DNA of 64,000 nucleotides from Sediminispirochaeta bajacaliforniensis DSM 16054 (GTDB lineage: Bacteria; Spirochaetota; Spirochaetia; DSM-16054; Sediminispirochaetaceae): NCBI RefSeq assembly GCF_000378205.1, contig NZ_KB899417.1:62001-126000 (forward strand), written 5' to 3'. Below are positions 19,414-35,482 of this stretch, one piece after another (within the stretch, counting starts at the first letter, position 1; each line of letters begins with the position of its first letter). A program made the translations under genes and the position numbers. The notes below the pieces were generated by a model that saw nothing but the letters and a program-made list of their open reading frames with translations, was not told where the DNA came from and made no database searches.

Positions 19414-20043
19414 CTATCTTCCTTTCTTCAGGACTGCGATTTCTCCGGAGCTGAGGTAACGGACCTTGCTTCCCTCCAAGAGGTAGGAAAGCTTTGCCGT
19501 TTCTTCGAGTTCTTCCATGGTGTCGCCTGCCTCAAACAGGCTCTTTCCCGTCACCACCGGACCGTGGTTTTGAAGAAGAAAGGCCGTATACCTTCCTGCA
19601 TATGCCTCCAGTTCTCTGGCGATTCCGATATCTCCGGGAGGATAGTAGGGGATCAGCGGTAATGTGCCGATTTTCATGACGTAGTATGGGGTGAAGGGGG
19701 GTATGACCTCGTCAGGATTAATGTCATTTCTGCAGGCAAGCAAGGTGCTCCAGGTAGAATGGAGGTGAAGTACGGCACCGCACTCCTGATCTCCCCGATA
19801 GAGGGACAGGTGGAATTGTATCTCTTTGGAGGGACGCAGGCCGGAAAGAAGCCTGCCGGTCATGTCGACGACGGAAAGCTCCCCGGCGGATAGGCGCCCG
19901 AGGCTGGAGCCGGAGGGGGTTGCAAGGATGCTTTCCCCGTCGATACGAGCCGAGATATTCCCGGCTCCTCCGACAGCATACCCTCTATCAAAAAGAGATT
20001 TCCCGATACGTACCATCTCCATCCTCAGCTGTTCTTCGTTCAT
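19414..20043 (-). CDS. Class II aldolase/adducin-family protein (OtnC-like)
   Basis: Zinc-dependent aldolase or decarboxylase of 209 residues. It has the class II aldolase pattern GNISARIDGE, the catalytic glutamate region SKEIQFHLSLY, and metal ligands in GAVLHLHSTWST and LQNHGPVVTG. In the known four-carbon acid-sugar pathways such an enzyme (OtnC) decarboxylates the 3-keto-4-phosphate made by a dehydrogenase and the OtnK-type kinase to dihydroxyacetone phosphate. Here its ATG overlaps the stop codon of the OtnK-like kinase by four bases, which supports that role. The actual substrate is inferred only. Confidence 0.85.
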   Translation of the reverse strand: MNEEQLRMEMVRIGKSLFDRGYAVGGAGNISARIDGESILATPSGSSLGRLSAGELSVVDMTGRLLSGLRPSKEIQFHLSLYRGDQECGAVLHLHSTWSTLLACRNDINPDEVIPPFTPYYVMKIGTLPLIPYYPPGDIGIARELEAYAGRYTAFLLQNHGPVVTGKSLFEAGDTMEELEETAKLSYLLEGSKVRYLSSGEIAVLKKGR

Positions 20044-21287
20044 ATAAAAAACTCCTGGGCCTTTACAAAGAAATCGTCATTGCCGAAATTGCCCGACTTC
20101 AGTGCAAGGTAGAGATCCTGACCGACGGCCCTGACCCAGGGAACCCCGGGATCGATTTGAGGGCCAATGAAAAAGGCCGAAAGACCAAGGCTTTGTACCA
20201 CCTTACCAGCCGTTTCTCCTCCAGCAACAATAAAATTCTTTACCCCGGCTCCGAGAAGCCTGCTTGCAAGTTTTCCGAAAAGCTCTTCGATGGCCCTTCC
20301 CACATCCTGAGAGGCATATGCCGGCTTTTCAAGTTCGCTTGCCTGCTTCGTGGCGTATAGCAGGGGTGTTGCACCATCCTCGATGGCTGCTGTCGTCCAG
20401 GCGTAGAGTTCGTCGAGATAGCCTGCGTCTGTTCTGCAGCGAAGTGCATCGATAAACTGCGAAGGGGCCTTTTCCCGATACCGGGCAACCTGCCGGTTCG
20501 TCGCCTTGGAACAGGAGCCTGCGATAATTACCGTCGCCCCTTTTTTCGGACGCCCCGCTTTTTCTGCCGAACGCTTTTCTCCCTCTTTATGTAGGCTGCG
20601 GGCTATTCCGGCGGCAAGCCCCGATCCACCGGTAACCAGGGGAAAGTCAGCAACGGCCGCTCCTATGGTGTCGAGGTGCTCCTGGTTGAGCGTGTCCATG
20701 ACCGCATAGCGGATTCCCTTTTCCTTTAACGATAGAAGCTCCCGTTTCAAGGCGCTGGGCCCCTTGTCGAGAACCTCAACATATATGTTCCCCGCCTTTC
20801 CTCTTGATTGCTGTTCCATGAGACGGGCAATATTCGAATCCCTCATGGGAGTGACGGGGTGATGCTGCATTCCCGATTCGCTGAGCAGCTGGTTTCCGAC
20901 AAAGAGGTAACCGCGATAGAGGGTACGTCCGTTGACGGGAAGGGCGGGACAGAGGATGGTGAACTCCTCTCCCATCTCATCAAGGAGGGCGTCGGTTACC
21001 GGCCCGATATTTCCCTTTGCAGTGCTGTCGAAGGTTGAGCAGTATTTGAAGAAAATTTGTTCGCATCCCTTGTCGCGAAGCCAGTGAAGGGCTTCGAGGG
21101 AAAGGCGTATGGCCTCGTCGGCGGGACATGATCTCGATTTGAGGCTGAGGACATAGGCTTCGGCTTCCGCCTCGAACCTTTCGTCTGGAATACCCGTCGT
21201 CTGAATCGTTCTGATCCCGTTCGTTACCAAAAATCCCGCTATGTCGGTTGCGCCGGTAAAATCGTCGGCAATAACACCTATGTTCAT
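20040..21287 (-). CDS. otnK: Four-carbon acid sugar kinase family protein (DUF1537, OtnK-like)
   Basis: ATP-dependent kinase of 415 residues that in characterised relatives phosphorylates 3-oxo-tetronates or threonate. The N-terminal sugar-binding domain opens with GVIADDFTGATDIAGFL, the family fingerprint. A central hinge has VTGGSGLAAGIARSL near 222. The C-terminal nucleotide-binding domain ends with FIVAGGETAGKVVQSLG and DPGVPWVRAVG. It is coupled to tctA upstream and the aldolase downstream by four-base overlaps, so transport and catabolism are one transcription unit. Confidence 0.88.
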   Translation of the reverse strand: MNIGVIADDFTGATDIAGFLVTNGIRTIQTTGIPDERFEAEAEAYVLSLKSRSCPADEAIRLSLEALHWLRDKGCEQIFFKYCSTFDSTAKGNIGPVTDALLDEMGEEFTILCPALPVNGRTLYRGYLFVGNQLLSESGMQHHPVTPMRDSNIARLMEQQSRGKAGNIYVEVLDKGPSALKRELLSLKEKGIRYAVMDTLNQEHLDTIGAAVADFPLVTGGSGLAAGIARSLHKEGEKRSAEKAGRPKKGATVIIAGSCSKATNRQVARYREKAPSQFIDALRCRTDAGYLDELYAWTTAAIEDGATPLLYATKQASELEKPAYASQDVGRAIEELFGKLASRLLGAGVKNFIVAGGETAGKVVQSLGLSAFFIGPQIDPGVPWVRAVGQDLYLALKSGNFGNDDFFVKAQEFFI

Positions 21288-22783
21288 TGTTTGCTTCCTT
21301 TATGGACCAGTTTCAGCAGCAGAGGGGAACAGAGGAAAAGGAGGGTCAGGGCAAGGAGCACCGCCGATATCGGTTTCTGAATAAAAATGAGTGCACTTCC
21401 ACGTGATATTGAAAAAGCCTGCCGTATGGAACGCTCAAACCGTGTTGCCAGAACAAAGGAGAGAAGGGCGGGCGCTATCGGATAATTGTTCTTCTTTAAA
21501 ATATAGGCAACCGCTCCCGCTCCTATCATGAACCATACATCGAACATGCTGTTGTTTACCGAATAGGATCCGACGATACAAATAACGACAATCATCGGCG
21601 CGATAATGCCCCGCGGTATACGGAGAATCGACATGAGAAAGGGAATGATGGCAAGGCCAGCAATCACACAGATCAGGTTTCCGATATACATGGAGCCGAT
21701 AAGGCCCCAGACGAAGTCCGGCTGTTCGGAAAAGAGGAGCGGACCAGGTTGAAGCCCCCACATCATCAGGCCGCCGAGCAGAACGGCCGAGGTCGCCGAT
21801 CCCGGAATTCCCAGGGAAAGCAGGGGAGCAAAGGCCCCGACAGCCGAGGCATTGTTGGCCGATTCCGAAGCCGCAACCCCCTCGATGGCGCCTTGGTCCA
21901 TATTCTTATTTTTGCCGGTCTTCTTTTCCAGGATATACGCCAGAAAGGAACCGGTCGTTCCTCCAGCGCCGGGAAGAAAGCCGACAAAATTACCGAGGAT
22001 CGAACTTTTGAGTATGGGCAGCGAGATCCGTTTGAGTTCTTTCTTATTGAGAATGCTTTCCCTGATGGTCAATCTTCGTCCGTCGGTAAGACTGTCGTCG
22101 TTTTTCCCCGCCATTAAATCCATCACCTGGGTAATGCCGAACATACCGATGACAAGGGGAATGAAGGATATCCCGCTTAAAAGATTAATGCTGCCGAAGG
22201 TAAAGCGGGGGGACCCGTCGGACAAAAGGTCCATGCCGATGGTTGAAAGGAGAATGCCGAGGCTCGTGGCTATGATCCCTTTGAGAAAGTCTTCTCCCAA
22301 AAGCCACCCGATGGATGTGAGTGCCAGAAAAATAAGGGAAGCTATCTCCGCCGGGCCGAATTTGAGACCAAAGTTGGCAATAACAGGACCGAAGACCGTA
22401 AGGGCGATGATTCCGATGGTCCCTCCGAAAAAGGAGGCGATGTTTGCGGTGAAAAGGGCTTTCCCTCCCTTGCCCTGGCGGCTGAGTGGATAACCCGCCA
22501 TTGCGGTCATGACCGCCGGAGAATCTCCCGGGATGTTCAAAAGTATCGCACTGTATGAGCCACCGTACATGTTGCCGTAGTAGATACCTGCGAGCATGAT
22601 GATTGCCGTGGTTGGGTTCATCTTAAAGGTCATGGGAAGAAGAAGAGAGACACCCGTTACCGCACCGATGCCGGGCATTGCACCGACGATGATACCGAGA
22701 AAGGCCCCGATTCCGGCAACCAGCAGATTATTAAGAGACAGGGCCGTGTTGAGGCCGTGCAAAAGCAGATCGAAGTTATTCAT
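21284..22783 (-). CDS. tctA: Tripartite tricarboxylate transporter large permease TctA
   Basis: Twelve-helix ion-driven permease of the TTT family, 499 residues. It has the two conserved family signatures: GAMPGIGAVTGVSLLLPMTF near residue 38 with YYGNMYGGSYSAILLNIPGD after it, and FLPGAGGTTGSFLAYILEK near 268. It imports a carboxylate captured by TctC together with sodium or protons. Given the neighbours, the likely cargo is a four-carbon sugar acid rather than citrate; this is inference. It starts 12 bases after tctB and overlaps otnK. Confidence 0.92.
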   Translation of the reverse strand: MNNFDLLLHGLNTALSLNNLLVAGIGAFLGIIVGAMPGIGAVTGVSLLLPMTFKMNPTTAIIMLAGIYYGNMYGGSYSAILLNIPGDSPAVMTAMAGYPLSRQGKGGKALFTANIASFFGGTIGIIALTVFGPVIANFGLKFGPAEIASLIFLALTSIGWLLGEDFLKGIIATSLGILLSTIGMDLLSDGSPRFTFGSINLLSGISFIPLVIGMFGITQVMDLMAGKNDDSLTDGRRLTIRESILNKKELKRISLPILKSSILGNFVGFLPGAGGTTGSFLAYILEKKTGKNKNMDQGAIEGVAASESANNASAVGAFAPLLSLGIPGSATSAVLLGGLMMWGLQPGPLLFSEQPDFVWGLIGSMYIGNLICVIAGLAIIPFLMSILRIPRGIIAPMIVVICIVGSYSVNNSMFDVWFMIGAGAVAYILKKNNYPIAPALLSFVLATRFERSIRQAFSISRGSALIFIQKPISAVLLALTLLFLCSPLLLKLVHKGSKQ

Positions 22784-22794
22784 ATTGCATCACC

Positions 22795-23226
22795 TCACAT
22801 CAGATGAAAGAGGCCTGAGGGAAATGGAACCCTGAGCCATACACGAAAGACACCGAAGATAAAGAGTGTAAAAGCTAAGCTGACCCCAATGGATTTAAGA
22901 AACGAATATTTGCTGAGAAACTTCATCCAGAGGAACATCAGAAAAAATACCGCAAGGGAAATTCCAAGGGTCTGAATGAACACAATACCGACCACGCCTG
23001 CACCGATGGGAATAAATGCCGTGTAGTCGACGGGGGCTGGCTGTTCGTGTTTTCTTTTGCGAAGCGCTACCACCGCAACGGAAGCGATAAGAGCGACGAT
23101 ACCGAAGAGAACAGGGATAAAACCTCCGCCTGGAATGCCGTCGGGCCAAAATCCGTATCGGGTTATCCCTTGATCTATCCAAAAGGCCGAGATAGCTATT
23201 ATGATTACCGAAATTACGAGATCCAT
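22795..23226 (-). CDS. tctB: Tripartite tricarboxylate transporter small permease TctB
   Basis: Four-helix membrane subunit of the TTT importer, 143 residues. The pattern is typical of TctB: GFWPDGIPGGGFIPVLFGIVA near residue 26, a polar loop with RKRKHEQPAP, and two closely spaced C-terminal helices. Sequence is weakly conserved in this family and the call rests largely on the position between tctC and tctA. AGGAG precedes the ATG. Confidence 0.88.
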   Translation of the reverse strand: MDLVISVIIIAISAFWIDQGITRYGFWPDGIPGGGFIPVLFGIVALIASVAVVALRKRKHEQPAPVDYTAFIPIGAGVVGIVFIQTLGISLAVFFLMFLWMKFLSKYSFLKSIGVSLAFTLFIFGVFRVWLRVPFPSGLFHLM

Positions 23227-23331: not shown

Positions 23332-24315
23332 CTACTTGAACAAACCGATGATGTTGCCCATTTGATACAGCCGCTCCGCCATTCTTTCATGGTATTCGGC
23401 ATATTCGTCAGCAGGCATAAATTTTGCTTCCAGACCGTTTTTCCTGATGTAGTTGTTTTTCCAGGTCTCGGTTTCGGTTACTTTCTGCATAACATCACTC
23501 CAGTACTGCTGCACCTCGGGACTCATTCCGGGCCCTCCCATGATCGATCTGAACATCTGAAACTCAATATTCGGATATCCCAGTTCGGCAAAGGTAGGCA
23601 CCGTTTCAAGGGGGGCCTCAAGCCGATCGGTGGAGAAGGCGGCAAGGGCAACCATGGTACCCGCCTGGATCTGACCAAGGCATTCATTGGGATTGAAGAT
23701 ACCAAGCTGGATATGATCGCCGAGAAGGGCCGTTGCGATTTCGCCCGCCCCGTCGAAATAGACCGTTGAAAATTCGGCCTCTGTTTCCATGTTGATTTGT
23801 GCGACGCAGAGTTTATCCAGATTGTCGGCAATTCCAACCAGAATACTTTCCGGATGTTCCTTGATAGCCTTCAAAGCGCCTTGGAAATCCTTGTACGGGC
23901 CGTCGGCCTTTGCAACAAGGAGAACATTATCCATGGCAAGGTTTGCGACAGGTGTAAACTCCCTGTCCTGAATGGATTTGTTTGCCCGTGCCGCCAGGGC
24001 ATGCGCCGCATTCATGGTGAAAATCGTATAGTTGCCGTCTTTCTTCCCCATGATATAGGCATGGCCTGCCGCACTTGCCCCACCAGGCTTATTGACGATG
24101 ACCATGGTTCCATCCACCAGATTGTTTTCATGAATGATTTCAAGAATCAAACGGGCCAGCGTGTCGCTACCGCCGCCGGCACTTGCCGGTACCACGAATT
24201 CCACGACATTGTCCGGATAGATCGCCGCTCCTCCATCGCCTTCCGGTGTTCCGTTTGCAAATAGACTTGCCGTCAGCAAAACTGTTACTGTCAGCATAAA
24301 CACAGCTCTTTTCAT
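23332..24315 (-). CDS. tctC: Tripartite tricarboxylate transporter binding protein TctC
   Basis: Periplasmic solute-binding protein (Bug family) of the TTT importer, 327 residues. The signal peptide is MKRAVFMLTVTVLLTASLFA, followed by NGTPEG. Family features are VEFVVPASAGGGSDTLARLI near residue 40, IVNKPGGASAAGHAYIMG near 75, and LAAFSTDRLEAPLETVPTFAELG near 220, where a carboxylate ligand is usually held by the loop after beta-strand one. GGAGAAGGAA precedes ATG 24315. The gene is first in an operon behind a sigma54 promoter. Confidence 0.92.
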   Translation of the reverse strand: MKRAVFMLTVTVLLTASLFANGTPEGDGGAAIYPDNVVEFVVPASAGGGSDTLARLILEIIHENNLVDGTMVIVNKPGGASAAGHAYIMGKKDGNYTIFTMNAAHALAARANKSIQDREFTPVANLAMDNVLLVAKADGPYKDFQGALKAIKEHPESILVGIADNLDKLCVAQINMETEAEFSTVYFDGAGEIATALLGDHIQLGIFNPNECLGQIQAGTMVALAAFSTDRLEAPLETVPTFAELGYPNIEFQMFRSIMGGPGMSPEVQQYWSDVMQKVTETETWKNNYIRKNGLEAKFMPADEYAEYHERMAERLYQMGNIIGLFK

Positions 24316-24411
24316 TTCCTTCTCCTTGTGGTGTACATAGTAAAAATTCAAAGCCTCTCGATTACCCGGGATTCGGTCGACTTTTTTCTACCTTGTTCTT
24401 TAGCGTTATAA

Positions 24412-24427
24412 AGCAAACAACATGCCA
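24412..24427 (-). promoter_or_regulatory. Sigma54 promoter of the tctCBA-otnK-aldolase operon
   Basis: On the minus strand TGGCATGTTGTTTGCT matches the -24/-12 consensus, with GG and GC at exactly the required spacing. It lies about 100 bases upstream of the tctC start. The divergent PrpR-like sigma54 activator is the obvious partner. Confidence 0.8.
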
Positions 24428-24526
24428 ATGTTTGCGCTGTTGGTGTTTATAAAACCAACTTACGGTATATTAACAAATTAGCACGCTACTGCTGCGAATC
24501 GGATTCATATCCCAGTTCCTCCTTGA

Positions 24527-24540
24527 TTGCATTCGTGCAA
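24527..24540. promoter_or_regulatory. TTGCA-N4-TGCAA site upstream of the tct sigma54 promoter
   Basis: TTGCATTCGTGCAA is a perfect inverted repeat of five-base arms. It lies 100 bp upstream of the sigma54 promoter, the usual place for an enhancer site. The same arms and spacer length recur upstream of the SAF dehydrogenase gene. Between the promoter and this site lies a further 21-bp near-palindrome at 24439-24459. Confidence 0.6.
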
Positions 24541-24583
24541 TGAATTCAACCATTTTCTTGTGACTTTGCAATATCTATACAGT

Positions 24584-25972
24584 TCATAGTGCGAAAATGG
24601 TATCCTGCTCCTCTCTAAGCTTCCAAAGAATCGCATCATCCGGTCGTTCCAGCATATCGGCATTCAACAGGGTTCCTGCCGGTATATCCTCTTTGAGCCG
24701 TGCACCGTCGGCAAGATAGTAGGGAAGTTGCGTATGAGCCGATATGCCCTGAGCCGGGAGCAAAATCCCTTCAAAGCCCTCTATGATGTGATGGTGTCCC
24801 TTTGCCTGTAGCTCCGTACCCTTGGTCATCGGTTTTACCGATCGGGCCACGAGGTCATAGCGAGGTTTTGGATCAGGACTGCTGGTCGGCAATCCTAATA
24901 ATCCGACGGAAAGAACACTGAAGAGCGCCTCGAATCCGAGGTAGTGGGCAGGATAGTATATCAAAGCCGTCTTTTTGTTTCGACTTACCGGAACCCCCTT
25001 ATCCTGAAGTACCTGCCACGTCTCTTCGTCGTCACAGGCTACCACGACATAGACGCCTCCCTCCAGGCTCTGTTCATCGGGACGCCGCAAGCAGTTGATG
25101 ACATCGATTCTCGCCTCACCCGAGAAGAGCCCTCCCATTGTTTCCGGGCACATAAGATCGGGAATCTCAACGGCACGGGCGATGGGGCAGTGGAAGCTGG
25201 AGATATCGGGACTGAATTCCGGAAGATGGTTGCAGACAATAGACATTTCGGCAAGGTCCGGTATGGCCCGCTGACCAAAATCGGATAAAAGCGCGCTCCG
25301 CTGCTCTACGGTCTGCCGGCCATTTTCTCCTAAACGCCAAACCTTCTCGAATCCAGACACCTCCTCCGTTCTGTCCAGCACCTGCATGGTTGAGTGTTCC
25401 GGATCAAAGATGAAATCATATTCACTCGATTTTCCTATGCTCACGATGGAGAGTCCTGCCTTTCGTGCCCATGTGACCAGGCCGATGAGAAGAGCCGGCT
25501 GATCTCCTTCAGCCAGAGAGTAGATTACTCCCTGTTCCCTTGCCTTTTTTGCAAGAAGTGATCCGACGACGGAATCCGATTCCTTTGTCACCATCACAAT
25601 ATGCTTATGGTGCTCGATAGCAGAAAGGGCATATCGTGCCGATGCCTCGGGATTTCCGGTCCCTTCCACAACAAGATCGCAGGGCATGCTCATTGCCGTA
25701 TCGATGTCGGTAAAAACAAGATACATGCCTTTTTCGAAGGCTGACAGCCCTTCTGCTGTGGAACTGCAGAGGGCAATGTTCTCCCGCTTGATACCTACCG
25801 ACAGATACGCATCAATACACTTCTGTGCGGTTCTCCCGCAAAGAATACGGATCGATATTGCATCGTTCCGTGAGCCGTAAATAAAAAGGGAATGGTTGAA
25901 TCCCCGAACACCGATAACGGCAACTTCCAGTTTCTTTTCCCCTTTTGTGGAAAAAAGTAGATCGTAGTTCAT
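24584..25972 (-). CDS. NAD(P)-dependent oxidoreductase with SAF domain (homoserine dehydrogenase-like)
   Basis: A 462-residue predicted dehydrogenase. The N-terminal Rossmann-like domain has KLEVAVIGVRGFNHSL and DLVVEGTGNPEASARYAL. The middle resembles homoserine-dehydrogenase-type proteins (KHIVMVTKESDSVVG). The C-terminus is an SAF domain (KGHHHIIEGFEGILLPA, DIPAGTLLNADML). Proteins of this layout often sit beside OtnK-type kinases and TTT or TRAP transporters. Here it could oxidise the imported acid before phosphorylation, but the substrate is not established. It has its own sigma54 promoter and a clear GGAGAAG box. Confidence 0.82.
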   Translation of the reverse strand: MNYDLLFSTKGEKKLEVAVIGVRGFNHSLFIYGSRNDAISIRILCGRTAQKCIDAYLSVGIKRENIALCSSTAEGLSAFEKGMYLVFTDIDTAMSMPCDLVVEGTGNPEASARYALSAIEHHKHIVMVTKESDSVVGSLLAKKAREQGVIYSLAEGDQPALLIGLVTWARKAGLSIVSIGKSSEYDFIFDPEHSTMQVLDRTEEVSGFEKVWRLGENGRQTVEQRSALLSDFGQRAIPDLAEMSIVCNHLPEFSPDISSFHCPIARAVEIPDLMCPETMGGLFSGEARIDVINCLRRPDEQSLEGGVYVVVACDDEETWQVLQDKGVPVSRNKKTALIYYPAHYLGFEALFSVLSVGLLGLPTSSPDPKPRYDLVARSVKPMTKGTELQAKGHHHIIEGFEGILLPAQGISAHTQLPYYLADGARLKEDIPAGTLLNADMLERPDDAILWKLREEQDTIFAL

Positions 25973-26008
25973 TGCATCTTCTCCAGGTAGAAAGTCTTAC
26001 ACATCTAA

Positions 26009-26024
26009 AGCAAATAGAATGCCA
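26009..26024 (-). promoter_or_regulatory. Sigma54 promoter of the SAF dehydrogenase gene
   Basis: On the minus strand TGGCATTCTATTTGCT has GG and GC correctly spaced for -24/-12. The start would be near 25999, leaving a leader of about 27 bases with a good ribosome binding site. Confidence 0.8.
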
Positions 26025-26154
26025 AGAACGGCCTTTATGAATGAAAAAAGAGGTAAAACTATTATGGAGAATCTATTTCTATACGTTATAATAACAAACT
26101 TGCTGCTGCCTTTTTTATTCTACGGGCGGGATGAAATTGTTTGACTATACGGTA

Positions 26155-26168
26155 TTGCAATAATGCAA
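26155..26168. promoter_or_regulatory. TTGCA-N4-TGCAA site between the dehydrogenase and PrpR-like genes
   Basis: TTGCAATAATGCAA repeats the arms seen at 24527-24540. It lies 131 bp upstream of the dehydrogenase sigma54 promoter and 43 bp before the preferred PrpR-like start, so it could serve both activation and autoregulation. Confidence 0.6.
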
Positions 26169-26210
26169 CTATGGATGCATACCTGCAAACTGCTTCAAGG
26201 GGGAAAAGAT

Positions 26211-28082
26211 TTGATCCGCATTACGTTTATTGTTCCTTACGCATCGATGAAGGGAACCGTCGAAGAGATTTTCTCCCAGCACCCGGAACGGTCGGTCATC
26301 TCGCAGTCCGTCATCATGAGGACTTTTGATGAGATCGATACCCTAAACCTTGATACCGATATTGTTATTGCCAGGGGCTATTCCGCCAACCGAATAAAAA
26401 AGCTCGGTATTCCATTGATCGACATGACTGTTACCGGTTTCGATATTACCACCGCTTTGAACAGCTGTATCAATCGTTACAGGCCGGAGAAGATTGCAAT
26501 CATCGGTCCCCTCAACACGGTTTACGGCATCGACGAGATAAAGAATGTGTTTCCCTGCTGTATCGAAGGATATCAGGTCGATGATCCTGTCTATCTTCCG
26601 GAAACGATCGACAGGGTGATGCAAGAAGGGGCGGAAGCGGTTATTGCGGGAAGGACAGGCTATTACCTCTGCCGGGATCGGGGAATCAACAGTATCATGA
26701 TAGAATCGGGGCGTAAAACCATCCTCCAGGCCATTGATGAGGCGGTCCGATCTATTCGATTAATGAGAAGGGAACGGGAGCGAAGCGACAGGTTCAAGAG
26801 CATTATGGATTACTCCTTTGAGGGAATCCTCTCCATTGATCGGGAAGGGGCCGTTGCCGTTGCCAACAACCATGCGCTGAAAGTGTTTCCAGCCTTGGAA
26901 AAGGCGAAAAATCCTCTGGCGGTAAAAAAGCTACTTCCGCAAGTGGATTTGAGTGAGGTCCTCCGTTCCGGAAAGAAGATCCTCGGCGAGTTGGTGCTTA
27001 TCGGAAAACGGATGTATACCCTCAACTGTGCGCCGGCCGGGGATGCCGGAGCGGTGATCACCTTTTCCAATGTTACCGAGATTCAGGAAATGGAGGGAAA
27101 GATTCGCACGAAGCTGCATAAGAAGGGCCTGGTGGCAAAGTACAGCTTTGCAGATATCATCGGAAGCGGGACTGCCATCGGTGAGGCTGTAAGGGTCGCA
27201 CGAAAGTTTAGTCAGGTGGAATCGAACATCTTTATCTTTGGAGAGACGGGAACAGGGAAAGAGCTTTTTGCCCAGAGCATTCACAACGACAGCAGAAGGC
27301 GCAATCAGCCCTTTGTTGCTATCAACTGTGCAGCCCTTGCCGAGGATCTTTTAGAGAGCGAGTTGTTCGGCTATGTGGACGGCGCTTTCACCGGTGCATC
27401 CAAGGGAGGGAAGGTCGGACTTTTCGAGCTGGCCCACAGAGGGACCGTGTTCCTCGATGAGATTGGCGACATTTCTCCCAAGCTGCAGAGTCGTCTCCTC
27501 CGGGTCCTGCAGGAACGGGAGATCATGCGTATCGGCCATGACCAGGTGATTCCCATCGACATTCGCATCATTTCGGCATCGAATAAGGACCTTAAGGCCC
27601 TTGTCGCCGAAGGAAAATTCCGGGAGGATCTTCTCTACCGACTCAATGTTTTGAAGCTGACGCTTCCTCCCCTTTGTGCCAGGGGACGGGATATCATTGA
27701 CCTCTGTTACCATTTTATAGAGCAGAATCGCTCGCGACTTCATTCAGGCCTTCGTCGCCTGACCCCGTCGGCCGAACAGGTGATTCTGGAAAGCGGCTGG
27801 CCCGGAAATGTACGGGAGCTCTATAATTTTTGTGAACGGCTTTGTGTCCTGTCCGAAGGAGATACCGCAGACCTCAAAGAGGTCGTTTCCTGTATGGAAC
27901 AACCCGCCCCCTCCCTGCGGCTTCAGCCGCAGGGGATTTCACTCGCGCAGGTATACGAAACGCGTGAGAAAGAGGCCATTGAAAAGGCCCTTGAGCTATC
28001 TTCGAGCAAAAAAGATGCGGCCCGACTGCTTGGTATCGACGCAAGCACCCTGTGGCGAAAGATGAAAAAGCATCACTTGTAG
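26211..28082 (+). CDS. PrpR-like sigma54-dependent activator
   Basis: Regulator of about 623 residues. The N-terminal PrpR_N-type sensor domain (IRITFIVPYASMKG, then DIVIARGYSANRIKKLGIPLIDM) is followed by a PAS-like segment near 205. Next is an AAA+ domain with Walker A GETGTGKELF, the sigma54-contact loop GAFTGASKGG, Walker B FLDEIGDI, and an arginine-finger region. A Fis-type helix-turn-helix ends it (KKDAARLLGIDASTLWRKMKK). I prefer TTG 26211 because AAGGGGGA precedes it; ATG 26163 is in frame but would overlap the TTGCA-N4-TGCAA site. Probable activator of the two sigma54 promoters in this cluster. Confidence 0.88.
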   Translation: MIRITFIVPYASMKGTVEEIFSQHPERSVISQSVIMRTFDEIDTLNLDTDIVIARGYSANRIKKLGIPLIDMTVTGFDITTALNSCINRYRPEKIAIIGPLNTVYGIDEIKNVFPCCIEGYQVDDPVYLPETIDRVMQEGAEAVIAGRTGYYLCRDRGINSIMIESGRKTILQAIDEAVRSIRLMRRERERSDRFKSIMDYSFEGILSIDREGAVAVANNHALKVFPALEKAKNPLAVKKLLPQVDLSEVLRSGKKILGELVLIGKRMYTLNCAPAGDAGAVITFSNVTEIQEMEGKIRTKLHKKGLVAKYSFADIIGSGTAIGEAVRVARKFSQVESNIFIFGETGTGKELFAQSIHNDSRRRNQPFVAINCAALAEDLLESELFGYVDGAFTGASKGGKVGLFELAHRGTVFLDEIGDISPKLQSRLLRVLQEREIMRIGHDQVIPIDIRIISASNKDLKALVAEGKFREDLLYRLNVLKLTLPPLCARGRDIIDLCYHFIEQNRSRLHSGLRRLTPSAEQVILESGWPGNVRELYNFCERLCVLSEGDTADLKEVVSCMEQPAPSLRLQPQGISLAQVYETREKEAIEKALELSSSKKDAARLLGIDASTLWRKMKKHHL

Positions 28083-30603: not shown

Positions 30604-32433
30604 CTATAAAGGGAGCCATAAAGAAAATTTGCAGCCGTTGGGGAGCAGGTTTTCCACGGTGATAGAACCCTTGTTCTTTTTGATGATGTTATAACTGACG
30701 GAAAGGCCAAGGCCGATATTTCCACTGTTGGATTCTTTCGTCGAAGTGAAAGGAAGGAATATGTCGTTTGGATTTTCAAGTTTGATACCCGTGCCGTTAT
30801 CTCTGATGGTGATGCAAGCCTCCGGCTTTCCCTCTTTTTTCATCTCGTGGGCGGTGAGTGCTATGGTACCGTTGCTGCCTATTGCTTCAAAACTATTTTT
30901 CAGAAGATTAAGAAGAACCTGTTTTATCTCATTTCGGTCGGCAGAGACCAGCAGGGGCCGGTCGTCGGTTACAAAATGGATCTCAATATGCTTTGCCTGT
31001 GCATTGAAACGGACAAGGTTGATCAGTTCTCTTATGAGAGAGACAATATTGAAAGGCTCTGTTGACAGTTCCCTGTTTTCCGAAAAGGAAAGAAGGTTCG
31101 CCACGATGTTTGCAATGTATTCGAACTGCTCCTCGAGATTGTCGATAAGTTTTTTAGATTCCTGATTTCCCTCCGTTAGCCATTTTAGTGATTCGAGATA
31201 ATTATAGATGATTCCCAAGGGATTATTGATTTCATGGGCAACCCCTGCGGCAAGAAGTCCGAGTGCGGCAAGTTTTTCTGAAAGGATGAGCTGTTCCCTC
31301 ATCCTTTCCCGTTCGGTGATATCTTCGAGAATGATGATATATCCCAGAGGGTGAAGACCATCGAGAACGGGATAGACAATGAAATTCGCTTGCATATTTT
31401 TCCCGTTCACTTTCAGAGGAATATCAAAAAGCATGGTCTCTTTTTTCCTGTGGATGGCCTTTTGAATTTTTTCCATGGCCTCTTTATCACTACCTTGAAA
31501 AAGGCCCTCGATATGAACATTGAAATCGAGTCTGTTGAGGCTGAAAAAATCCCTGGCCGTATCGTTGATTAACTTAACGTTATATTTCGTATCAAGAACC
31601 AGAAGATTGATGGGAAGACTTTTTAGTATGGCTTCGTTATAACGAAGCAGTTGATAGAATTCACTATTCGAATGCTGCCGGTCCTCTCTTTCCGACATTT
31701 GCGTATAGGCTATACGTATAAGGTTTATTTTGTCGATCCGGTTTGTCTCTTCGCTCAGCAGTAGTTCACCATGACGGATAATAGAAACCCTATCTGCTAT
31801 GTGATAAACATCGTCGATCTGGTGGGTAATAAAAAGGACCGACGATCCCTCGTTGGTTAATTGATGAAGCATAGGTATGATCTTAATCAGATTGATCGAA
31901 GAGAGTTTTTCAAGGGTTTCGTCAAGGATGAGCAGACGAGGTTTTTTGTACAGTTCCCTGAGAATGGCGACAAGGGCCCTATCTGCCATGTTAAGATTGG
32001 CTGTTCTTGCCAGTGGGTCGAGGTGGAAGCCATGCTGCTTTATATAATTTTGAGCCTCGAGTCGTATCGCTGCGGCATTAAAGAATGTAAACAGACCGCC
32101 AATGATATCTTTATTGCCGATGAAAAGATTTTCAGCAACATTGTACGCCTTTGAAAGCGGTATTCTCTGTTTTACCAGGCAGATGTTGGAGCGATCGGCT
32201 TTTTGATTTACATAGTTTTGCTGGGCGACTCCCTTCATGAAAAAGCTTCCGCTTTTTATTGGAACTTCACCTTTTATCAAGAGCGCCAGCGAGGATTTTC
32301 CTGCACCATGTTCCCCCACCAGTGCATGAATTTCTCCAGGCCTGATGGTGAGTGAAATATCCGAAAGAACGGGCACTTCACCATAGGCGGCACTGATATG
32401 TTCCAGCCGAATCAGATCATCCCTCGATGCCAT
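30604..32433 (-). CDS. RbsA-type ABC ATPase fused to a PAS histidine kinase
   Basis: A 609-residue soluble protein with no membrane segment. Residues 7-240 form an ABC domain like the first half of sugar ATPases: Walker A GEHGAGKSS at 40-48, Q-loop glutamine 89, a diverged signature NLNMADRALVAI at 146-157, Walker B LLILDE at 167-172, and H-loop histidine 204. A PAS-like domain spans about 260-375. Then come HisKA with the phospho-acceptor histidine 400 (GVAHEINNPLGII), N-box asparagine 513, DNGTGI at 545-550 and GLGL at 574-577. The ATG lies inside the sigma54 regulator gene. I infer that it docks on a ribose-type permease and reports transport. Confidence 0.9.
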   Translation of the reverse strand: MASRDDLIRLEHISAAYGEVPVLSDISLTIRPGEIHALVGEHGAGKSSLALLIKGEVPIKSGSFFMKGVAQQNYVNQKADRSNICLVKQRIPLSKAYNVAENLFIGNKDIIGGLFTFFNAAAIRLEAQNYIKQHGFHLDPLARTANLNMADRALVAILRELYKKPRLLILDETLEKLSSINLIKIIPMLHQLTNEGSSVLFITHQIDDVYHIADRVSIIRHGELLLSEETNRIDKINLIRIAYTQMSEREDRQHSNSEFYQLLRYNEAILKSLPINLLVLDTKYNVKLINDTARDFFSLNRLDFNVHIEGLFQGSDKEAMEKIQKAIHRKKETMLFDIPLKVNGKNMQANFIVYPVLDGLHPLGYIIILEDITERERMREQLILSEKLAALGLLAAGVAHEINNPLGIIYNYLESLKWLTEGNQESKKLIDNLEEQFEYIANIVANLLSFSENRELSTEPFNIVSLIRELINLVRFNAQAKHIEIHFVTDDRPLLVSADRNEIKQVLLNLLKNSFEAIGSNGTIALTAHEMKKEGKPEACITIRDNGTGIKLENPNDIFLPFTSTKESNSGNIGLGLSVSYNIIKKNKGSITVENLLPNGCKFSLWLPL

Positions 32434-33745
32434 ATCTGAGCAACTTGTTATACAGTGTGCTGCGGCTGATATGAAGGTGTCGTGCACACTTTGATTTATT
32501 GTAATGGAAACGCTGGAGCGTTTTGACCAGGATCTCCTTCTCAGACAGCTCAAAAGCCCCCTGTCTCTCCGACGGCAGATTTCGTATGGAAAGAATGTCG
32601 GCAGGTAATTCCTGGATGTGTAGTATCGAATCCGATGTCATGGTGCATGCATAGTGAATACAGTTTCTCAGCTCTCGTACGTTACCTGGCCAGTGATACA
32701 CCAAGAAAAGGTCCTGAACTTCCGAGGTAATTCCCGTGATGGGCTTCTTATGCTCCTTGGAGTAGGACGCAAGAAAATATTCGGTTAAGGGTACAATATC
32801 TTCCCTTCTGTCGCGCAAGGGCGGAATTTTGAGATGGGCGGCCTTGAGACGGTAATAGAGGTCTTCCCTGAATTTCCCCTGTTCGATCAGTGTCTCAAGA
32901 TTTTTATTTGTCGCTGCAATGATATTCACATCGATCTTTATTGTCTTACTGCTTCCGACCTTGCGTATTTCCTGGTTTTGGAGGACCCGAAGGATCTTAG
33001 CCTGAGTAGACAACGACATATCTCCTATTTCGTCCAGAAAAAGCGTATTATTGTGCGCTTTTTCAAAAAGACCGACATGGTCGGAGACGGCCCCTGTGTA
33101 GGCCCCCTTCTCATGACCGAAGAGTTCGTTGTCGAGAAGTCCTTCGGTGAGCGCCGCACAGTTCACCGTCACCATCTCCCGATGACCTCTGGGCGATCTG
33201 AGATGAAGATGCTGAGCGAAAAGCTCTTTTCCTGTTCCGTTTTCACCGGTGATGAGCACCGGCAAGTTTGCCAATGCAAGCTTTTTCATCTGAAGAAGGA
33301 GTGCTTCTATTGCTTTATTTTTGCTGATAATAGGAGGCGCCTGTCTGAGAACCTTCTCCTTGAGTGAAGAACGTTCATTGTCAAGCTCATTGAGGCGGGA
33401 TATGGTGGCAAGCAGCCGCAACAGTTTTTCGAAGCGGATTGGCTTTTGAATGTAATCAAACGCACCATATTTTATTGATTCTACCGCCGTCTCGATCGTG
33501 CCATATCCCGTTATCATGATGACCGGGAGTTCCGGTTTCCTTCGTTTTATTTCTTTGAGAAGGTCGATGCCGGAGATGCTTCCGAGCATAATGTCGATGA
33601 GGACTGCTTCACAGTGACGGGTTCCAAGAAGTGCCATTCCTTCTTCGGCATGTGTGCTGTAATGACAGTCTATTTGATGAAGGCTGAGGCTTTGCCGCAT
33701 GCTTTCGCAATATGCTTCATTATCATCTATCAATACAATTTGCAT
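32417..33745 (-). CDS. NtrC-type sigma54-dependent response regulator
   Basis: Partner of the ABC-kinase fusion, about 442 residues. The receiver begins MQIVLIDDNEAY with phospho-acceptor aspartate 51 in AVLIDIMLGS. The AAA+ domain has GENGTGKELF, the sigma54 loop GAYTGAV and FLDEIGDMSLS. A Fis-type helix ends the protein (KSKCARHLHISRSTLYNKLL). The frame is open to ATG 33772 and TTG 33781. A sigma70 promoter starting near 33777 leaves almost no leader for those, so I choose ATG 33745. Its last codons overlap the kinase start. Probable targets are the two sigma54 promoters at 33.9 and 35.5 kb. Confidence 0.88.
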   Translation of the reverse strand: MQIVLIDDNEAYCESMRQSLSLHQIDCHYSTHAEEGMALLGTRHCEAVLIDIMLGSISGIDLLKEIKRRKPELPVIMITGYGTIETAVESIKYGAFDYIQKPIRFEKLLRLLATISRLNELDNERSSLKEKVLRQAPPIISKNKAIEALLLQMKKLALANLPVLITGENGTGKELFAQHLHLRSPRGHREMVTVNCAALTEGLLDNELFGHEKGAYTGAVSDHVGLFEKAHNNTLFLDEIGDMSLSTQAKILRVLQNQEIRKVGSSKTIKIDVNIIAATNKNLETLIEQGKFREDLYYRLKAAHLKIPPLRDRREDIVPLTEYFLASYSKEHKKPITGITSEVQDLFLVYHWPGNVRELRNCIHYACTMTSDSILHIQELPADILSIRNLPSERQGAFELSEKEILVKTLQRFHYNKSKCARHLHISRSTLYNKLLRYGIEG

Positions 33746-33767
33746 ACTTCTTTCATCACTCTGTACA

Positions 33768-33791
33768 GACATATTGTCCAAAAATTGTACA
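33768..33791. promoter_or_regulatory. Enhancer-type site 1 for the sigma54 regulator
   Basis: The core TGTCCAAAAATTGTACA is a loose palindrome (TGTnC-N7-GnACA). The 24 positions match 20 of 24 with the site at 35349-35372. It lies 105 bp upstream of the first sigma54 promoter and covers the -10 box of the regulator's own promoter. Confidence 0.7.
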
Positions 33792-33895: not shown

Positions 33896-33911
33896 TGGTA
33901 TGTTTTTTGCT
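33896..33911 (+). promoter_or_regulatory. Sigma54 promoter of the nucleoside hydrolase gene
   Basis: TGGTATGTTTTTTGCT has the invariant GG and GC at -24/-12 spacing. The start would be near 33922, within a TGCATG-G-CATGCA inverted repeat (33922-33934). A good AAGGAG precedes the ATG. Confidence 0.8.
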
Positions 33912-33956: not shown

Positions 33957-35216
33957 ATGGGCAAATTGAGAAAACGGATTGCCGCTGTCGCCTTAGTAGT
34001 AGTGTCGGCAGCTGTTTGGGCAAACGGTGGCGGAGAGCGTATGAGCTATGAAGCGAGGGTTGTGGAGAAGGCACAGGGTGCACGAAAGGTAATATTGGAT
34101 ACCGACATGGTGGAACTGTTTGACGACGGCATGGCCATGATCCTTCTTGATCGCTCTCCGCATACAGAACTTCTCGGAGTTACAGTAGTGTCCGGGAACA
34201 CGCCAATGCCCCGTGGTATGGCAACTGGTGTACGACAGCTGGAGGCCATTGGTTCTACCGTTCCGCTTTATGCAGGCAGCCGTTACGGAATTCGCTCCTG
34301 GCGGGCTGTGCCCGAGGTCCTCTCCGCCGAGCTGGCAATAAGTCCTGTCGTCTCGTGGGGCGGATATTTGCGGTCCGCTATCGACCCTGAAACCTACAGT
34401 GGTATTGAATTCGATCCCATGGCACGATGGGCGGAACTCTATAAGACTTTATACAATGAAAGTCCTGTTTATCCCTATGTCTACGATACGGAAAATCCCG
34501 ATCCTCAAGGAAGAGATGAAGCCGTAGATTTTCTTGTAGATACCGTAAATATGTACCCCGGAGAAGTGACCATTGTGGCTATTGGCCCTCTTACCAATAT
34601 CGCCAGGGCCATCATGAGAGATCCATCCTTTCCGTCAAAAGTAAAAGAAATAATCTATATGGGCGGTTCATTCTTTTTGCCGGGCAATTCTTCTGCAGCT
34701 GCCGAATTTAACTGGTGGGCCGATCCCGATGCCGCAAAGATCGCTCTTCGAGCAGTATGGGGGGATCCCGAGTCTGAATCCTATAAGCGCTATGGAAACC
34801 AGGTCATTTCCGGTTTGGAGGCAAACCACAATACCGGGGGAATGCCGCTTGAACTCTACAAGAAGATGGTAGCCCACACCTTCCCAGGCCTGCAGCCGCT
34901 CTTTTATAAGCGGGGTATGGATGATGCACCGACGAATATCTGGGACCTTTTTGCGGCGGCATATCTGATCGATCCTTCGATCGTGCTTTCCTGGAATAAT
35001 GACCCTCGGCCTGCGGACAATAGCCCGCAACCCATATATGGCGTCTATGTTGATGTGAACGCCGAGATGGGCCCCGATTACGGGAGGAGTATCGCCTATG
35101 AAAAAGAGCAAGGACCTGTCGGCAGCAAAAAGGCCGCAATACAAAACTTCATCGACGAAGAAAAATTTTGGAATGAAATCGTGTACCCTCTATTAGTTGA
35201 TCCGGAAAATAGGTAG
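33957..35216 (+). CDS. Secreted nucleoside hydrolase (IunH family)
   Basis: Predicted N-ribohydrolase splitting nucleosides into base and ribose, 419 residues. An N-terminal signal peptide (RIAAVALVVVSAAVWA, then NGGGE) suggests a periplasmic location, unlike most cytoplasmic family members. The calcium-binding start reads ILDTDMVELFDDGMAM, an expanded form of the usual DTDPGxDD. Also present are IVAIGPLTNIARAI, IIYMGGSF, AEFNWWADPDAAKIAL and a late aspartate in TNIWDLFAAAYL. Released ribose would feed the adjacent importer. Its own sigma54 promoter and a downstream terminator make it a separate unit under the shared regulator. Confidence 0.85.
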   Translation: MGKLRKRIAAVALVVVSAAVWANGGGERMSYEARVVEKAQGARKVILDTDMVELFDDGMAMILLDRSPHTELLGVTVVSGNTPMPRGMATGVRQLEAIGSTVPLYAGSRYGIRSWRAVPEVLSAELAISPVVSWGGYLRSAIDPETYSGIEFDPMARWAELYKTLYNESPVYPYVYDTENPDPQGRDEAVDFLVDTVNMYPGEVTIVAIGPLTNIARAIMRDPSFPSKVKEIIYMGGSFFLPGNSSAAAEFNWWADPDAAKIALRAVWGDPESESYKRYGNQVISGLEANHNTGGMPLELYKKMVAHTFPGLQPLFYKRGMDDAPTNIWDLFAAAYLIDPSIVLSWNNDPRPADNSPQPIYGVYVDVNAEMGPDYGRSIAYEKEQGPVGSKKAAIQNFIDEEKFWNEIVYPLLVDPENR

Positions 35217-35466: not shown

Positions 35467-35482
35467 TGGTACGCTTCTTGCA
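35467..35482 (+). promoter_or_regulatory. Sigma54 promoter of the ribose-type transporter operon
   Basis: TGGTACGCTTCTTGCA is close to the ideal -24/-12 consensus. The start would be near 35494, inside a TGCATG-CA-CATGCA inverted repeat (35492-35505). The distance to the ATG (about 47 bases from the GC) and the leader sequence closely match those of the hydrolase gene. Confidence 0.85.

Follow-up and report, generated by a model that had tools for sequence, protein, structure and literature searches.

A PrpR_N-type sigma54 activator with candidate dyad sites at two sigma54 promoters, predicted to control tetronate use in a spirochaete

The locus of a putative sigma54 activator in Sediminispirochaeta bajacaliforniensis raises the question whether this protein governs the genes next to it, through which sites, and for the use of which substrate. 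In the window, i.e. the whole stretch of 64,000 nucleotides that was analysed, the activator gene is divergent from a gene for a DRL/SAF-type oxidoreductase, probably of the DLO2 group, which has a promoter of its own. The tct operon comes next, with tctC, tctB, tctA, the kinase and the decarboxylase genes in this order and closely packed (Table 1). The locus is near-identical in a second genome of the genus (G371), in which the one DRL match is 98% identical to the oxidoreductase.

Table 1. Features of the locus, with positions in the window
Feature	Position	Strand	Basis
Activator, PrpR_N-PAS-AAA+ (sigma54 activation)-Fis HTH	26211..28082	+	TTG start (likely); Pfam PF06506, PF00158, AAA_lid_14 and HTH_8 above cut-offs
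Second dyad ATGCATACCTGCAA, one mismatch	26175..26188	none	20 bp from first; pairing also in L007, L008, L010
Perfect dyad TTGCAATAATGCAA, putative activator site for DLO2 gene	26155..26168	none	one of six perfect copies in the genome
Sigma54 promoter TGGCATTCTATTTGCT of DLO2 gene	26009..26024	-	TTGGCA...TGC core aligned and kept in L007, L008
DRL/SAF-type oxidoreductase, probable DLO2 group, proposed to oxidise tetronate	24584..25972	-	PF21135 DRL_cat; relatives 3UPY/3UPL; S. smaragdinae protein in DLO2 list (PMC3847144)
Perfect dyad TTGCATTCGTGCAA, putative activator site for tct operon	24527..24540	none	pattern match; one of six perfect copies in the genome
Sigma54 promoter TGGCATGTTGTTTGCT of tct operon	24412..24427	-	strict pattern match
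tctC, substrate-binding protein	23332..24318	-	PF03401
tctB	22795..23226	-	PF07331
tctA	21284..22783	-	PF01970
3-oxo-tetronate kinase OtnK, DUF1537 family	20040..21287	-	NF043035, 570 bits (cut-off 350)
3-oxo-tetronate 4-phosphate decarboxylase OtnC, class II aldolase family	19414..20043	-	NF043034, 270.5 bits (cut-off 250)

The original prediction had correctly placed the two sigma54 (-24/-12) promoters on the minus strand and the two perfect TTGCA-N4-TGCAA dyads, and the dyads lie 100 and 131 bp from their promoters as it had stated. Its proposal that the two distances differ by about three helical turns is correct as arithmetic (31 bp), but it is based on two spacings, and spacings vary in the relatives. 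In addition, a second dyad had been overlooked in front of the DLO2 gene. It carries one mismatch, and its distance from the perfect one is exactly 20 bp, or roughly two turns of the helix.

A motif scan of the 4.57 Mb genome (G000) gave 12 dyad listings, which correspond to six sites, the pattern being palindromic; two of the six are at this locus. The strict sigma54 pattern TGGCAY-N5-TTGCW had ten matches, again two at this locus. Since the reversed control of this pattern had seven matches in the genome, the strict pattern alone is weak evidence. This small excess and the four perfect dyads away from sigma54 sites would fit the view that dyads and promoters are chance matches. However, the number of perfect dyads expected by chance in both intergenic regions together is only about 0.0007 (P of at least two about 2e-7). 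First-order Markov simulations of these regions yielded a dyad in about 0.1% of cases and a strict sigma54 site in about 0.03%; all these figures are rough, for sites picked post hoc. The joint occurrence of dyads and sigma54 sites is far beyond chance (P about 1e-6 to 1e-7, again rough, as the sites were already known at the time of the test). Together with the conservation in diverged relatives described below, this makes an origin by chance extremely unlikely.

No sigma54 match was present within 1.5 kb of any of the four remaining perfect dyads; as far as detected, the regulon thus comprises this locus alone. Frequent dyads away from sigma54 promoters had been named as an observation that would speak against the prediction; such dyads exist, but six in 4.57 Mb are not frequent. 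A wider regulon in the genome was rejected, as no close pairing was seen at the four other perfect dyads or at seven other strict sigma54 sites examined. Dyads with one mismatch numbered 148, and among the matches listed, about a third, a single one, on C4, had a poor sigma54 match at a distance of about 240 bp, which is what chance predicts.

Which protein would bind these dyads? In a Pfam profile search, the divergently encoded protein matched PrpR_N (PF06506) with 89.6 bits against a cut-off of 29.1 (profile positions 27-167), the sigma54-activation domain (PF00158) with 223 bits and HTH_8 with 42 bits, the latter two also above cut-off. The PAS region was assigned via similarity to PAS structures. 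The protein had been called PrpR-like, and this is apt for its domain layout, but not in the sense of a PrpR equivalog, as it scored 343.9 against that model (cut-off 499.2). With this score and with targets that differ, the idea that the activator is PrpR itself was rejected.

The mechanically called reading frame of the activator begins at ATG 26163, so that the dyad would overlap the start codon. The true start is likely TTG 26211, as this codon aligned with the ATG of the orthologue in L007; it is preceded by an AGGGGG stretch. With this start, the dyads of the window lie 23-56 bp ahead of the regulator's start codon (23-57 bp with L007 included). The second perfect dyad thus also sits in front of the regulator gene, as predicted, whereas for control of the regulator's promoter the divergent layout is no more than a hint; autoregulation via the dyads is possible. 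The same positions, and a sigma70-like match further upstream at 26065-26092 that is little above chance, could be read to mean that the dyads mainly let the regulator repress its own gene, or that an unrelated repressor binds them, with sigma54 activation proceeding via other sites. However, the dyad of the tct operon is far from the regulator's promoter. Moreover, in loci in which the regulator is on the same strand as its neighbours (L042, L045, L046, L087 and others), the dyads lie directly past the regulator's stop codon, and a sigma54 site is found 83-228 bp past this codon. Overlap with the regulator's promoter would therefore be a trait of the divergent layout, and we consider a mainly repressive role of the dyads very unlikely.

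The genome contains one convincing copy of rpoN, with one strong Sigma54_DBD match, and eleven strong sigma54-activation domains in all. As ten of these belong to other strong sigma54 activators, one of them a response regulator encoded about 4 kb downstream (32417-33781), the promoters could be sigma54-dependent while another activator binds the dyads. We therefore assigned the sites to the adjoining activator on adjacency and co-conservation. The dyads sit in intergenic regions of its own locus and travel with the PrpR_N regulator and, in other families, with its orthologues, which makes binding by another activator improbable.

The relatives L007, L008 and L010, with DLO2 proteins 63-67% identical to that of the window, have kept the tandem dyads at the 20-bp spacing (TTGCACTAGCGCAA and TTGCAGTATTACAA, TTGCATAGACGCAA and TTGCACGTAAACAA, and GTGCAGTCCTGCAA and TTGCGGTGTTGCAA, respectively). 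The rest of the intergenic region is poorly conserved, except that L007 and L008 retain the promoter core. L007, L008 and L045 deviate from the strict pattern by one mismatch in their sigma54 sites, and the sigma54 site in L010 is uncertain. In L007, the genes form two units, DLO2-kinase-decarboxylase and tctCBA, each with a sigma54-like site and upstream TGCA half-sites. Perfect dyads together with sigma54 sites separate the regulator from the tct/otn genes in L042 and L045. In L009, a weaker tct promoter precedes a single series of all the genes, and the half-sites are only loose. Dyads adjoining sigma54 promoters recur across the class Spirochaetia, and their spacer ranges from 2 bp (L046, L087) to 4 bp (the window, L042, L045). 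Related regulators in L046, L087 and L088 go with half-sites of the form TTGCA-N2-TGCAA, and L046 harbours two such dyads 21 bp apart.

All these data give good support to a two-promoter sigma54 regulon of the adjoining PrpR_N activator, as predicted. The activator would act as a sigma54 enhancer-binding protein that binds the dyads about 100-170 bp upstream of the two promoters and turns on the DLO2 gene and the tctCBA-otnK-otnC operon. We hold it highly likely, from domain content, sites and layout, that these two units are activated in this way for tetronate use. The PrpR_N or the PAS domain may sense the inducer, which could be a tetronate or an intermediate of the pathway, and the dyads in front of the regulator's start codon might also allow autorepression. 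The switch itself is of a well-known kind. For a spirochaete, it gives a concrete, testable set of activator, sites and promoters, and no paper on such a regulon was found in the literature searched.

The response regulator mentioned above is of the NtrC type. It adjoins a single reading frame on the minus strand (30604-32553) in which an ABC-transporter ATPase domain is fused with PAS, HisKA and HATPase domains, an unusual layout for a sensor. Weaker sigma54-like sites on the plus strand, TGGTATGTTTTTTGCT (33896-33911) and TGGTACGCTTCTTGCA (35467-35482), lie before and after the reading frame 33957-35216 beside this response regulator.

What would the regulon be for? Judged by its gene content, the locus very probably serves the uptake and catabolism of a tetronate of the threonate or erythronate type. 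In the established DUF1537 pathway, the kinase and the decarboxylase would give dihydroxyacetone phosphate. Here, an imported four-carbon sugar acid would be converted to 3-oxo-tetronate, to its 4-phosphate and then to dihydroxyacetone phosphate. The genome's best scores for the L-threonate dehydrogenase LtnD (184 vs 350 bits) and the 2-oxo-tetronate isomerase OtnI (132.8 vs 325 bits) came from sub-threshold homologues elsewhere in the genome only. The DRL/SAF oxidoreductase gene stays with the kinase and decarboxylase genes in spirochaetes and Paracoccus, and its product, the DLO2 oxidoreductase, is the natural candidate for the oxidation. In Paracoccus onubensis (L011, 5734-14079), one cluster comprises a PdxA-like gene, tctC, tctA, the DLO2 oxidoreductase, kinase and decarboxylase genes and an OtnI-like gene. 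We did not accept the lack of OtnI as proof of direct oxidation at C3, as in our reading Paracoccus has an OtnI-like gene beside DLO2 and a weaker OtnI homologue is present in this genome.

An S. smaragdinae sequence has been listed in the uncharacterised DLO2 clade, and the clade members tested did not replace DXR (PMC3847144). This genome encodes a canonical DXR, and in an alignment with 3UPY that is weak around position 229, Thr229 and Arg320 of DXR-II align, in our reading, with Asp and Tyr. A role of the DLO2 protein as isoprenoid DXR was therefore rejected. DLO2 proteins have so far been described as an uncharacterised oxidoreductase family only, and from this locus we suggest tetronate oxidation as their possible role in the cell.

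PrpR_N matches were found in 28 of 393 genomes of the phylum, and tct genes or DUF1537 kinases adjoin many of these regulators. Within the Spirochaetia, many flank tct genes bearing sigma54 promoters, with half-sites of two classes, TTGCA or TTTCA. Where the recognition helix of the regulator has Asp (LG[IM]D-x-[ST]TL), the half-sites in front of the sigma54 site are mostly TTGCA; where it has Ser (G-x-S-R-TTLWR), they are mostly TTTCA. The counts of TTGCA to TTTCA were 10:1 in the Asp class and 0:12 plus one tie in the Ser class, some class labels having been read by eye. In a second PrpR_N group, formed by L082, L084, L085, L086, L089, L090 and L093, the tct genes follow near-perfect sigma54 promoters that are themselves preceded by GTTTCA/TGAAAC inverted repeats. 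On a regulator tree built without the HTH, the Asp and Ser classes separate by a single change, which is indistinguishable from shared descent. The association was therefore rejected as independent proof of a specificity code, and the link between helix residue and half-site class is suggestive only. Tentatively, and with slightly less than even confidence, we propose that the PrpR_N sigma54 activators are a Spirochaetia family dedicated to the uptake of sugar acids and organic acids via Tct transporters, with TTGCA or TTTCA half-sites going with Asp or Ser, and that DLO2 is a tetronate-oxidising enzyme that replaces LtnD/DenD in this branch. The half-site classes could help to predict targets of many PrpR_N activators that have no assignment.

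Among known systems, LuxO of Vibrio is likewise a sigma54 activator with TTGCA/TGCAA half-sites, and at qrr it often has a pair of sites some 90-120 bp ahead of the start; its consensus, however, is TTGCA-W3-TGCAA with a 3-bp spacer, in contrast to 4 bp here (PMC11443567). LuxO is a quorum-sensing regulator and by domain content not an orthologue of this activator. The oxidoreductase shares the DRL catalytic domain with DXR type II and is related to the Brucella structure 3UPY, but in our reading it differs at the two signature residues of DXR-II, and the genome has a canonical DXR as well. With the enterobacterial propionate regulator PrpR, which is activated by 2-methylcitrate (PMC9452892), the activator shares the PrpR_N, AAA+ and Fis-type HTH domains, the divergent orientation from the target and the layout of a ligand-responsive one-component system. 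Unlike PrpR, whose equivalog cut-off it does not reach, it adjoins tct and tetronate genes as its predicted targets instead of prp genes. As in the aldolase-DUF1537 tetronate pathway of Ralstonia and Brucella (ltnD/denD, otnI, otnK, otnC), the kinase and decarboxylase pass curated cut-offs. That pathway differs in that the LtnD and OtnI models have no match above cut-off in this genome, and the Brucella cluster is repressed by the DeoR-family VdtR (PMC10580937), whereas the spirochaete locus has a sigma54 activator, a Tct transporter and a DLO2 oxidoreductase.
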